A stretch of 64,000 bases of DNA from Ruegeria arenilitoris. Its GTDB lineage: Bacteria > Pseudomonadota > Alphaproteobacteria > Rhodobacterales > Rhodobacteraceae. This document shows, in pieces, positions 9,274-55,160 of this stretch. The stretch spans positions 248,001 through 312,000 of the forward strand of contig NZ_WQHP01000001.1 of NCBI RefSeq assembly GCF_013035315.1. The letters run 5' to 3'. Every line of letters starts with the position of its first letter. Position 1 is the stretch's first letter. The position numbers and the translations under genes were made by a program. The notes below the pieces were generated by a model, which saw only the letters and a list, made by a program, of their open reading frames with translations, was not told the DNA's origin and made no database searches.

Positions 9274-9423
9274 GAGTGCCTCGGCAATGTGTGTGTTGGA
9301 CTTTTTCTTTCGTCTATCACCCCTCGCCAACAGTGTCAGCGGCTAAGGTGGCGCAATTCAAGATGTGATCGGATTTTCGCCACCTTTTGGAGGCGCAGAA
9401 AGGGCAAACTCACAAACGACAAA

Positions 9424-9445
9424 GGGAGCCGTTGGAGCGGCTCCC
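9424..9445. terminator. strong unassigned hairpin
   Basis: An 8-bp stem GGGAGCCG/CGGCTCCC with a 6-base loop. On the minus strand it is followed by TTTGTCGTTT, on the plus strand by TTCGATATAATTTT. No annotated transcript clearly ends here, so it may belong to a leader of the IalB-family gene or to an unannotated RNA. Confidence 0.45.
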
Positions 9446-9563
9446 TTCGATATAATTTTCTCCCCGTCGGACTGGCCGACTTAGTTATGCGCAGACGTTA
9501 CGAAAGGCAGACGCAGCGGTCAACTGCTAACCTGAATTTTTAATGTTATGACCATGATTTGTG

Positions 9564-9665
9564 AAAAAAACCGCGCCCGGAGGCGCGGTCAGTCGACAGG
9601 GAGGAAATATGCTGACCCACAACCAAAGCCGGGGGACAGCAATTAGACTTTCGCAGCCAAAGGTT
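9564..9665 (-). ncRNA. candidate small RNA with exposed CCUCCC anti-Shine-Dalgarno loop
   Basis: On the minus strand a clear terminator (CCGCGCC/GGCGCGG stem, 4-base loop, then TTTTTTT, 9564-9588) has no minus-strand gene before it. Directly upstream is a hairpin, GGTCAG/CTGACC (9612-9617 with 9587-9592, the last two bases shared with the terminator stem), whose loop contains TTTCCTCCCTG. Loops presenting CCUCC are known from Rhodobacter CcsR (cuckoo) RNAs and rhizobial sRNAs, where they can pair with ribosome-binding sites. A weak promoter (TTGTTT, 18-base spacer, CATACA; 9700 to 9671) would give about 100 nt. The exact 5' end is a guess. Confidence 0.5.
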
Positions 9666-9712
9666 AAATTTGTATGCTGGCCGAAGATCGGTGGAAACAA
9701 GGCCTTACATTC

Positions 9713-11254
9713 ATGGACAAAAACATCTTTTTGGGCGGCTCCGGCAACGACTATAGCCAACCGCAATCGCTGACGCTGAAATATGCCAATCGTCACGGCA
9801 TGATTGCGGGGGCGACCGGCACCGGCAAGACCGTGACATTGCAAATTCTGGCCGAGGGGTTTTCGCAAGCGGGCGTCCCTGTTTTCCTGTCGGACGTCAA
9901 AGGCGATTTGTCCGGTCTGGCCAAGGCAGGCAGCGAAGACCACAAACTCCACCAGGCGTTTCAAGACCGTGCGCAGCGTATCGGTTTTGTTGACTACGCC
10001 TATGGCGCTTTTCCGGTCACCTTTTGGGATCTGTTCGGGGAACAGGGGCACCCGGTCCGAACCACCGTAACCGAAATGGGTCCCTTGTTGCTGTCTCGGT
10101 TAATGGACCTGAGCGAGGCACAGGAAGGGATCTTGAACATCGCGTTCCGGGTGGCGGACGAAGAAGGTTTGCCATTGTTGGACCTCAAGGACCTGCAGTC
10201 TCTGCTGGTCTGGATCGGGGAAAACCGGGCGCAGCTGTCCCTGCGCTACGGCAACGTTTCAACCGCTTCGATCGGAGCGATCCAGCGCCGTCTGTTGGTG
10301 CTCGAAAATCAGGGCGGTACAAAGTTGTTCGGCGAACCAGCGTTGGAACTGGCCGATCTGATGCGTTTGGACGAAAACGGGCAGGGGGTCGTGAACATCC
10401 TGGCCGCCGACAAGTTGATGGGTTCACCGCGCCTTTACGCAACCTTCCTGCTGTGGTTGCTGAGCGAATTGTTCGAGGAACTGCCCGAGGTTGGCGATCC
10501 GGACAAACCCAAGCTGGTTTTCTTTTTCGACGAAGCGCATTTGTTGTTCGATGACGCGCCCAAGGTGTTGGTGGACAAGGTCGAACAGGTCGCGCGTCTT
10601 ATTCGCTCCAAAGGCGTGGGCGTCTATTTCATCTCGCAAAATCCTGCGGACATTCCCGAAGACATTCTGGGTCAGCTGGGCAACCGGGTTCAGCACGCCC
10701 TGCGCGCGTTCACAGCACGGGATCGAAAAAACCTGCGCCTCGCAGCCGAGACCTATCGGGAAAATCCCGCCTTCGACACCGAACAGGCTATTCGCGAGGT
10801 TGGTGTGGGCGAAGCCGTAACTTCGATGCTGCAGAAAAAGGGTGTCCCGGGGATCGTCGAACGGACACTGATCCGCCCGCCGGGATCGCAGCTTGGCCCG
10901 ATCACAAAGGCCGAGCGCAAGGCGCTGATGGATGCCTCGGCGATGAAGGCGAAGTATGGGAAACTGACTGACCGGAAATCAGCCTTTGAAATCCTGCAAG
11001 CCCGCGCAAATTCAGCGGCGCAGGCTGCGGCCGAAGCGGAAGAACAGCTTGAGACGCAATCGACGGCAGAACGGGAATTCGCGACAGCGCGGCGCTATTC
11101 CGGCAGCCGCGTCGGACGATCCTCAGCCCGCGTCATGCGCAAGAAGGACACATTCGCCACCGCGATGAGCGAGGCCGTGATCAAAGAACTGAAAGGCACA
11201 ACCGGACGCCGCATCGTGCGCGGCATTCTGGGCGGGTTGTTCAAGGCTCGCTAA
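9713..11254 (+). CDS. HerA-like DUF853 ATPase
   Basis: A 513-residue cytosolic ATPase of the HerA/FtsK superfamily. Walker A is GATGTGKT (residues 33-40) and Walker B is [12 protein letters not shown], followed by the [13 protein letters not shown] segment typical of DUF853 proteins. The C-terminal third is charged and alanine/glutamate rich. The in vivo role is not established; relatives are annotated as putative DNA helicases or translocases. I chose ATG 9713 (MDKNIFLGG) because family members begin there; ATG 9674 would add 13 residues and has a comparable weak AAAGG site. It appears monocistronic. Confidence 0.85.
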
Positions 11255-54485: not shown

Positions 54486-54980
54486 ATGTCGCGTACTCTT
54501 ATTCTCGCAGTTATCGTCGCTGGCCTTGGCGCTGGCATCTACTATTACCTAAATCAACCTGAACCCACGCCTGCTGAGCGGCTGCAATCGGCGGCGCAAG
54601 AAGCGGGCGAAGCCGTGAACGACGCCGTTGACGCGGCCACCGAGCAAGCGAATGAGGCTGCATCTTCGATCACAGAGCAGGCTACCGAAGCCGCCGAGCA
54701 AGCCGGACAGGCAGCCACCGATCTGGCAAACCAGGCCAGCGATCAGGTTGCCTCACTGGCCACGCAAGGCCAGGATCTGGTGAATTCCTGGATCGAAGAA
54801 GGCACGCTTTCCGTTCAGAACTTTGACTATGACGCCATTGTCGCCTCGGTTCAGGACAGTCAGTTGTCGCAGGACCTGAAAACACAGGCGCTGAATATCC
54901 TTGATGAAATCAAGGCGTCACCTCAGTTGATTGCAGAGAAAATCGAAGAGTTGCGCACCCTTCTGACATCTCAGCAATAA
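54486..54980 (+). CDS. membrane-anchored alanine-rich coiled protein
   Basis: 164 residues. ATG 54486 follows AAGGAG. An N-terminal membrane segment (TLILAVIVAGLGAGIYYYL) is followed by about 70 residues of 11-residue-like amphipathic repeats rich in Ala, Glu and Gln (QSAAQEAGEAVNDAVDAATE), resembling LEA or apolipoprotein-type helices, then a polar C-terminal helical domain (DYDAIVASVQDSQLSQDLKTQ). It is probably periplasmic and tethered. Function unknown. It has its own terminator. Confidence 0.7.
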   Translation: MSRTLILAVIVAGLGAGIYYYLNQPEPTPAERLQSAAQEAGEAVNDAVDAATEQANEAASSITEQATEAAEQAGQAATDLANQASDQVASLATQGQDLVNSWIEEGTLSVQNFDYDAIVASVQDSQLSQDLKTQALNILDEIKASPQLIAEKIEELRTLLTSQQ

Positions 54981-54985
54981 CCCTT

Positions 54986-55020
54986 ATGGGCCGTTCGCTT
55001 CAGAGCGGCCCATTTTTTTT
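54986..55020 (+). terminator. terminator of the coiled protein gene
   Basis: TGGGCCG..CGGCCCA stem followed by eight T residues, starting 6 bases after the stop codon. Confidence 0.92.
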
Positions 55021-55160
55021 GTCGCGGGCAAGCTCCCGCTACGTCAGTTCCCACTTTGATTGACGTATGGACGGGCGTTTGGTTGGCTGTTTCCTAAATC
55101 CGAATACCACACGCACCAGACCCGGTCGGTCCTGTGCCTGTACAGCAGATAGGAGACAGC

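Follow-up and report, generated by a model that had tools for sequence, protein, structure and literature searches.

Two tandem small RNA genes on the minus strand of the herA-ialB spacer of Ruegeria as indicated by genome comparison

Introduction

Small RNAs that expose a CCUCCC seed raise a puzzle, since such a seed could match the Shine-Dalgarno regions of very many mRNAs. Does the spacer between ialB and herA of Ruegeria encode an sRNA of this anti-Shine-Dalgarno type, and what might restrain it? The initial annotation had proposed one unannotated sRNA of about 100 nt on the minus strand. Here we compare this spacer within the genus and across the family Rhodobacteraceae. The analyzed window is the whole stretch of 64,000 nt of Ruegeria arenilitoris DNA, and all positions refer to it unless stated otherwise.

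Results and discussion

Arrangement and conservation of the spacer

The spacer is located between ialB (PF06776; 8674-9273, minus strand) and the divergently orientated gene of a HerA-like ATPase (PF05872; 9713-11254, plus strand). It is 439 nt in size in the window and ranged from 426 to 507 nt across the genus, with both neighbours kept in all 54 genomes. Of the testable loci, 99 of 101 had ialB downstream on the sRNA strand and 94 of 103 had herA upstream.

The stretch containing the proposed sRNA, here named RNA1, had sequence matches in all 54 Ruegeria genomes. The mean column identity within the genus was 0.99 at 9458-9480 and 0.97 at 9588-9606. It was 0.83-0.90 for terminators and promoter boxes, 0.57 for the RNA1 hairpin and 0.55-0.68 for the remaining spacer. 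The first of these positions belongs to a second conserved sRNA gene (9490-9418), which was overlooked by the initial annotation and is here named RNA2. It starts 73 nt beyond RNA1 on the same strand in the window. The order RNA1-RNA2 on one strand was found in each of the 81 loci with matches to both, separated by a gap of 46-296 nt.

A scan of the whole window with Rfam gave nothing above cut-off within the RNA1/RNA2 stretch. From the comparison we consider it nearly certain that the two sRNA genes are real and constitute a locus of Rhodobacteraceae for which Rfam has no family. At the level of sequence, the comparison demonstrates both genes, their strand, the RNA2 promoter, both terminators and the conserved complementarity described below. 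We infer transcription, a role of Hfq, mRNA targets, and titration together with its direction.

No earlier account of the pair was found in the covered parts of the main text of open-access papers on Rhodobacter, Roseobacter and alphaproteobacterial sRNAs, and the pair may be present as an unnamed entry of an RNA-seq table. A word search in the accessible text of a Paracoccus sRNA paper (PMC5107571) gave no match. A survey of Ruegeria pomeroyi, as far as its accessible text goes, comprises 30 trans-sRNAs with coordinates in the supplement (PMC4809877).

Structure and strand of RNA1

RNA1 is a predicted sRNA of approximately 100 nt (9564-9665, minus strand, predicted 5' end), supported by the genus matches, the covariance model and the paired stems. 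According to the fold it consists of a short 5' hairpin, a variable hairpin (9641-9610), the unpaired UUUCCUCCCU and a terminator. The strong minus-strand terminator noticed initially was confirmed (9564-9590; stem 9590-9569 followed by a T run), with TTTCCTCCCTG immediately 5' of it. The unpaired linker between hairpin and terminator reads UUUCCUCCCUG and is part of the anti-Shine-Dalgarno-like core UUUCCUCCCUGUCGACUGACC (9587-9607), in which CCUCCC is unpaired at 9604-9599 and the final bases join the terminator stem. From this fold it follows that the motif lies in a linker and not in a hairpin loop, where the initial annotation had placed it.

The 101 nt from 9660 to 9560 folded at -40.0 kcal/mol compared with a mean of -28.4 kcal/mol for shuffled sequences (z -3.4; 0 of 200 shuffles as low). 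The fold of the full 149 nt (9564-9712) was less marked (z -2.35; 2 of 200 shuffles as low). A promoter-like box TACAAA-n-TTAACC is located at 9662-9674; TTAACC was present directly upstream of RNA1 in 59 of 81 loci and TANAN..TTAAC in 43 of them. A conserved -35 element was not seen upstream.

The alignments used for covariation of both RNAs were fitted to covariance models, so that structure is favoured in the respective figures. In 81 loci, drawn from nearly one genome per genus, 95.5% of the cells in the RNA1 stems were paired and 260 cells carried double changes. None of 500 shuffles reached this pairing, which dropped to 42-53% when the partners were slid by 1-3 columns. In the variable hairpin 91.2% of the cells were paired and each of the 7 pairs had changed on both sides; in the terminator the latter applied to 7 of 9 pairs, with 98.8% of the cells paired. 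Compensatory changes were also present in the free alignment of the genus, in 11 of 16 pairs. Read on the minus strand, the stems contained 152 G-U versus 9 A-C combinations, counts which the opposite strand would swap.

Conservation of the motif and its stem in relatives was thus found as the initial proposal had implied: TTCCTCCCTG was exact in 52 of the 54 Ruegeria genomes and the stems were kept through compensatory changes. Altogether, strong support for an sRNA of this length and strand with an anti-Shine-Dalgarno-like CCUCCC comes from its occurrence in the genus (54/54) and the family (233/295), from covariation and from the strand counts.

The good ribosome-binding site that had been noted on the plus strand is there, as AGGGAGG was kept in 53 of 54 genomes. 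However, this conservation is a by-product, since AGGGAGG is the RNA1 core read on the other strand, and the ATG was retained in only 9 of 54. A plus-strand leader peptide was therefore rejected, and the idea that the motif originated from such a site found no support. More generally, the stretch might be protein-binding DNA or encode a plus-strand leader peptide instead of acting as RNA. The kept ribosome-binding letters would suit this explanation; the lost ATG, the covarying stems and the minus-strand predominance of G-U over A-C make it hardly credible.

The sole long minus-strand ORF through RNA1 (9527-10051; 174 codons) runs antisense to herA and crosses the terminator. It was taken as spurious because the stretch differs in length among the genus genomes (131, 132, 129 and 128 nt) by amounts that are not multiples of three. 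The letters of the RNA1 terminator recur at 11 further places in the genus genomes. Six of these were read (L055, L056, L058, L061, L062 and L063), and in all of them a near-identical terminator directly follows a gene for a ribosomal protein, which by eye resembles rpmJ. These six repeats were therefore rejected as relatives of RNA1, with which they share terminator letters only.

RNA2, a second sRNA gene

RNA2 (9418-9490, minus strand, predicted 5' end) is a predicted sRNA of about 72 nt according to the covariance model and the paired stems, and is a probable sponge. A -35 box TTGACC (9518-9523) and a -10 box TAACGT (9495-9500), separated by 17 bp, are followed by GCAUAACUAAGUCGGCCAGUCCGACGGGGAGA and a terminator (9420-9449). 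The conserved part comprises the stem-loop GUCGGCCAGUCCGAC and the linker GGGGAGA (9459-9480).

RNA2 had matches in 241 genomes, and we analyzed 91 of these loci, namely the 30 best, 60 lower-ranked ones and that of Rhodobacter sphaeroides. The pattern TTGACN-N17-TANNNT preceded RNA2 in all 91, always with a spacer of 17, whereas random windows of the same loci contained it in 325 of 20000 cases even with spacers of 16-18 allowed. The promoter is sigma-70-like and looks constitutive. In the stems 99.0% of the cells were paired and 232 carried double changes; pairing fell to 33-67% when the partners were slid by 1-3 columns. The terminator had 98.5% of its cells paired and changes on both sides in all 12 pairs, and the stem-loop hardly varies. 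With 124 G-U versus 3 A-C combinations on the minus strand and with the promoter on that strand, a plus-strand RNA at this site was rejected.

The constant position of ialB downstream on the same strand would also be expected if RNA2 were a leader or attenuator part of ialB, and RNA1 the 5' region of herA, and neither a free sRNA. Against this stand the complete terminator and T run of RNA1, and the own promoter and covarying terminator of RNA2. Moreover, in R. sphaeroides a catalase gene and an OxyR-like gene occupy the herA side and both RNAs are still present. We regard this explanation as very unlikely. By eye, a conserved promoter-like CTGACA box of ialB itself lies 3' of the RNA2 terminator in the window (9313-9345) and in other loci; such a box would speak against RNA2 as the ialB leader, too.

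Distribution in the Rhodobacteraceae

Of 295 Rhodobacteraceae genomes, drawn almost one per genus, 241 matched the covariance model of RNA2 and 233 that of RNA1. Each RNA thus occurs in about four fifths of the sampled genomes, including Ruegeria and R. sphaeroides (very probably strain 2.4.1). The assignment of the latter genome (G103, seven contigs) is based on a reaction-centre H protein with 100% identity to the known sequence and on the SorY position given below. In R. sphaeroides, RNA2 was located at C4:1426530-1426603 with RNA1 directly before it. At this locus (C4:1424000-1429500, L308) the sRNA pair adjoins an ialB-like gene and fabF; the catalase, OxyR-like and ialB-like genes were named by reading their translations. 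In 10 of the 91 RNA2 loci no RNA1 match was found, so RNA1 is not the sole reason for RNA2 to exist.

Among 289 genomes of the class, the RNA2 model gave 8 matches, 3 within the family and 5 weak ones outside, which on reading lacked the RNA2 core. The RNA1 model gave 12 matches, 3 within the family and 9 weak ones outside. Seven of these nine were read; all 7 contained CCUCCCU, and 5 of 7 CCUCCCUGUU, so that they resemble RNA1 in their general type. In five loci of other alphaproteobacterial families (L378, L379 and L381-L383) the RNA1-model match has AAGCCUCCCUGU before the terminator, and in 4 of the 5 a small hairpin ACGUCU...AGACGU is placed directly upstream. These are probably another sRNA of the RNA1 type.

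The exact RNA2 core was present in at least 119 stretches of named genomes, 80 of which were listed. Among the matches listed, all were by title or genus from Rhodobacteraceae in the wide sense, except for bins assigned only to Rhodobacterales, Alphaproteobacteria or Pseudomonadota and one genome labelled Maritalea.

Complementarity between RNA1 and RNA2

The RNA1 core reads CUCCCUGUCAGACUGGCC in many genera, is one base shorter in Ruegeria and reads CUCCCUG-AACU-GGACUGGCC in R. sphaeroides. A core CUCCCUGUYRGACUGGCC is, with variations, common to RNA1 and the known sRNAs SorX and SorY, and the stem-loop and linker of RNA2 form its near-complement. The RNA2 core GGCCAGUCCGAC(A/G)GGGAG is complementary to the RNA1 core and, in the window genome, better to SorX and SorY. 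Part of the complementary stretch lies inside a 5-bp stem that must open. Between the cores of RNA1 and RNA2, 1035 of 1064 cells from 76 genomes held standard pairs.

In the window strain the two RNAs paired at -32.9 kcal/mol, which is unremarkable, as 47 of 1000 RNA2 shuffles were as low. Elsewhere this applied to 3 (L103), 1 (L308) and 0 (L123) of 1000 shuffles. A test for covariation between both RNAs in a fixed alignment, covering 76 of the 81 pairs (one was skipped and the others failed the core pattern), was null with 718 of 5000 permutations as high. This result is explained by both seeds being nearly invariant.

The null test would equally be expected if RNA2 bound a protein or, as an ordinary sRNA, acted in trans on C-rich mRNA targets. 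The complementarity would then result from the resemblance of GGGAG to Shine-Dalgarno and of CUCCC to anti-Shine-Dalgarno sequences. The loci that keep RNA2 without an RNA1 match fit this explanation as well, as does the near-invariant stem-loop, which a protein site might also produce. However, Shine-Dalgarno logic covers GGGAG/CUCCC only and not the further match of GGCCAGUC with GACUGGCC, and it leaves the association of CUUGCC with CAAG described next unexplained. We therefore consider an ordinary sRNA unlikely, though a serious alternative to a sponge.

In three loci (L309, L364 and L376) CUGGCC of RNA1 was replaced by CUUGCC and CCAG of RNA2 by CAAG. A follow-up set comprised 59 further genomes, chosen by their RNA1 match alone, and the discovery genome G346 (L445). 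The RNA2 pattern was found in 43 of these 60, the other 17 being outside the count; one match (L437) is probably false. With the discovery genome excluded, CUUGCC went along with CAAG in 5 of 5 cases, and CAAG was present in 1 of 37 others. The association had a p value of approximately 7e-6 (calculated by hand, without L445) or 1.1e-6 with L445. A further double change was found in L126, where RNA1 CUGACC faces RNA2 GGUCAG.

Uncompensated changes were found, too. CUUGCC was present without CAAG in L338 and L368, and in L101, L105 and others RNA1 CUGACC was opposite an unchanged RNA2. The RNA2 loop base that faces the U of RNA1 was a pyrimidine in 4 of 76 genomes. One locus (L441, genome G166) combined RNA1 CUCGCC with RNA2 CAAG, an intermediate between the two matched states; on a FabF tree this genome adjoins G277, which carries CUUGCC without CAAG.

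The FabF tree included 29 of 30 rows (G163 was left out), with G217 on a long branch. The fabF match of the latter (C1:909739-910930, L475) consisted of two pieces that overlap and differ in frame, possibly due to a frameshift or sequencing error. The combined CUUGCC-CAAG state needs 4 changes on this tree, at least 2 of which are forced by well-supported branches, and thus must have been gained or lost repeatedly. A tree-corrected test of co-change, restricted to the 3 independent pairs on supported branches and hence of low power, gave a p value of 1 (sign test). Overall, the compensatory changes are suggestive of co-evolution of the RNA1 and RNA2 seeds.

SorX and SorY as putative clients of RNA2

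SorX of the window genome (C20:252866; 80.6 bits) reads CUCCCUGUUGGACUG, and by reading 15 contiguous bases pair with RNA2, two G-U pairs included. A SorY-like RNA (C1:380302) reads CUCCCUGUUGGACUU. Its name rests on the likeness to a SorX-model match of R. sphaeroides at C4:1632636, which fits the 5' end of SorY given as 1,632,642 in the accessible text of PMC6238624.

For a 28-nt part of RNA2 in the window genome, duplex energies were -38.7 kcal/mol with the SorY-like RNA, -36.1 with SorX and -30.4 with RNA1. Of 31,984 background segments from the window, 6 reached the energies of SorX and the SorY-like RNA, all of them the own antisense of RNA2, and 33 reached that of RNA1. In R. sphaeroides the duplexes with SorY, SorX and RNA1 had energies of -39.6, -39.3 and -36.0 kcal/mol, respectively, the background count being that of the window. 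Accordingly, in the window genome RNA2 is better matched to SorX and the SorY-like RNA as clients than to RNA1, and pairing with RNA1 is stronger in other genera.

Within the 4.39-Mb genome CTCCCTGTYNGACTG had one mismatch-free site, which is located in SorX. With one mismatch it was found in the own antisense of RNA2, in the SorY-like RNA and at two other places. Genome-wide there was no excess at up to 2 mismatches (41 sites versus 68 for the reversed pattern). An extended complementarity to the cores of several sRNAs, as expected for a sponge, was thus found for RNA2; it was weakest for RNA1 of the window strain.

Proposed function of the pair

We propose that RNA1 is a trans-acting anti-Shine-Dalgarno sRNA of the SorX/SorY/alphaR8 type, and that RNA2, with its own promoter, is a sponge encoded beside one of its clients. 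We assign this reading a probability of roughly 0.6. RNA1 would probably be induced under some condition, and its unpaired UUCCUCCCUG between hairpin and terminator would mask Shine-Dalgarno sequences, with CCUCCC binding these regions of mRNAs. RNA2, supplied by its constitutive-looking sigma-70-type promoter, would use the loop CCAGU and the linker (A/G)GGGAG to pair with the unpaired cores of RNA1, SorX and SorY. As the RNA2 core is nearly complementary to the core common to these sRNAs, it most likely pairs with and titrates all three. RNA2 may thereby titrate or destabilise these sRNAs, and only a surge of the stress sRNAs would then pass. For RNA2 we consider a sponge mechanism likely.

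Pairing is symmetric, and the direction could also be reversed, with RNA1, SorX and SorY repressing RNA2 as the effector. In Caulobacter, over-expression of the sRNA SisA also lowers full-length CrfA, its titrating partner, according to the accessible text of PMC12559287. The promoter of RNA2, which looks constitutive, suits a buffer more than a target, and we regard the reversed direction as quite improbable.

Returning to RNA2 as a sponge, a broader generalization can be considered. A constitutively transcribed decoy with the mirror image of the core common to RNA1, SorX and SorY could set one threshold for the whole stress sRNA class, with seeds of clients and decoy that evolved together, in most sampled genera of Rhodobacteraceae. 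We put this forward tentatively, at slightly less than even odds. If true, a conserved and probably constitutive decoy beside one anti-Shine-Dalgarno sRNA would be a direct answer to the restraint of such sRNAs, and SorX and SorY, which belong to the oxidative stress response of Rhodobacter, would gain a common partner.

Comparison with known sRNAs

The initial annotation had related the motif to CcsR and alpha-r14. In the Rfam search no such family was found for RNA1 at E values up to 10, and Rfam may lack a CcsR model. In CcsR the anti-Shine-Dalgarno motif is of the CCUCC type and unpaired. An unpaired motif of this type is what RNA1 has in common with both; by neighbours and architecture they are the wrong relatives. 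In R. sphaeroides CcsR has four copies, which are transcribed together with a DUF1127 (ccaF1-like) gene upstream of them (PMC10253847, accessible text), and alpha-r14 (NfeR1) has three hairpins with CCUCCUCCC unpaired in each (PMC10746234, accessible text). In contrast, RNA1 has a single copy at its locus next to ialB and herA, and its one CCUCCC is placed in a linker. Both identifications were therefore rejected. In three Ruegeria genomes (L098, L099 and L100 of G002, G036 and G043) a further SorX-model match directly follows a DUF1127-like frame and has GGGACCUCUUCCU before the terminator; it is a candidate for a CcsR-like RNA of this genus.

RNA1 is best read as a divergent relative of the SorX/SorY/alphaR8 type. 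Its Rfam scores were all below cut-off, the best being SorX (RF02784) with 25.1 bits (cut-off 46.6; E 0.00044), followed by suhB/mmgR (RF00519) with 19.8 bits (41) and SorY (RF02651) with 14.1 bits (111). A further suhB match at 54946-55026 of the window was dropped, as it contains no CCUCCC. SorX, likewise of Rhodobacteraceae, has the core CUCCCUGUUGGACU directly before its terminator. The gene whose 3' UTR gives rise to SorX is ompR. This origin from a 3' UTR (title of PMC5056773, as cited in PMC8307010) differs from RNA1, whose upstream neighbour herA is divergent. SorY resembles RNA1 by its core ACCUCCCUGUUGGACUU and by transcription from its own promoter (PMC6238624, accessible text), as seems to apply to RNA1.

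For RNA2, the R. sphaeroides sRNA StsR is similar in its length of 72 nt and in having an sRNA as partner. Here we take SorY to be RSs1543 and SorX to be RSs2461. Together with RSs1624 at 1,724,505 (PMC6238624, accessible text), the RSs numbers rise by about 0.94-0.95 per kb. From this spacing of names StsR (RSs0827) would be expected at approximately 877 kb, compared with 1426.5 kb for the RNA2 ortholog. Judged by this map position, RNA2 would be a gene other than StsR, an identity which the common length had suggested at first. StsR acts on the sRNA UpsM and depends on RpoHI/RpoHII, as stated in the accessible text of PMC8307010.

In the alphaR8 sRNAs (MmgR, SisA-D) the defining UUUCCUCCCU is single-stranded, preceded by a weak hairpin and followed by a Rho-independent terminator, and most species encode them beside an N-formylglutamate amidohydrolase (FGase) gene (PMC12559287, accessible text). 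The same arrangement with the exact 10-mer was found in the window, and the 10-mer was exact in only 10 of the 54 genus genomes. The neighbours of RNA1 differ, being ialB and herA and not an FGase gene.

The closest parallel in pairing mode is CrfA of Caulobacter crescentus, which pairs with the UUUCCUCCCU core of the four alphaR8 siblings SisA-D, titrates them and lowers SisA (PMC12559287, accessible text). The likeness concerns the mode of pairing; RNA2 differs in that it adjoins one client and that its complementarity spans GGCCAGUCCGAC(A/G)GGGAG. In both systems a G/A-rich stem-loop RNA is complementary to a core common to sibling sRNAs, and the clients consist of a hairpin, a single-stranded motif and a terminator.
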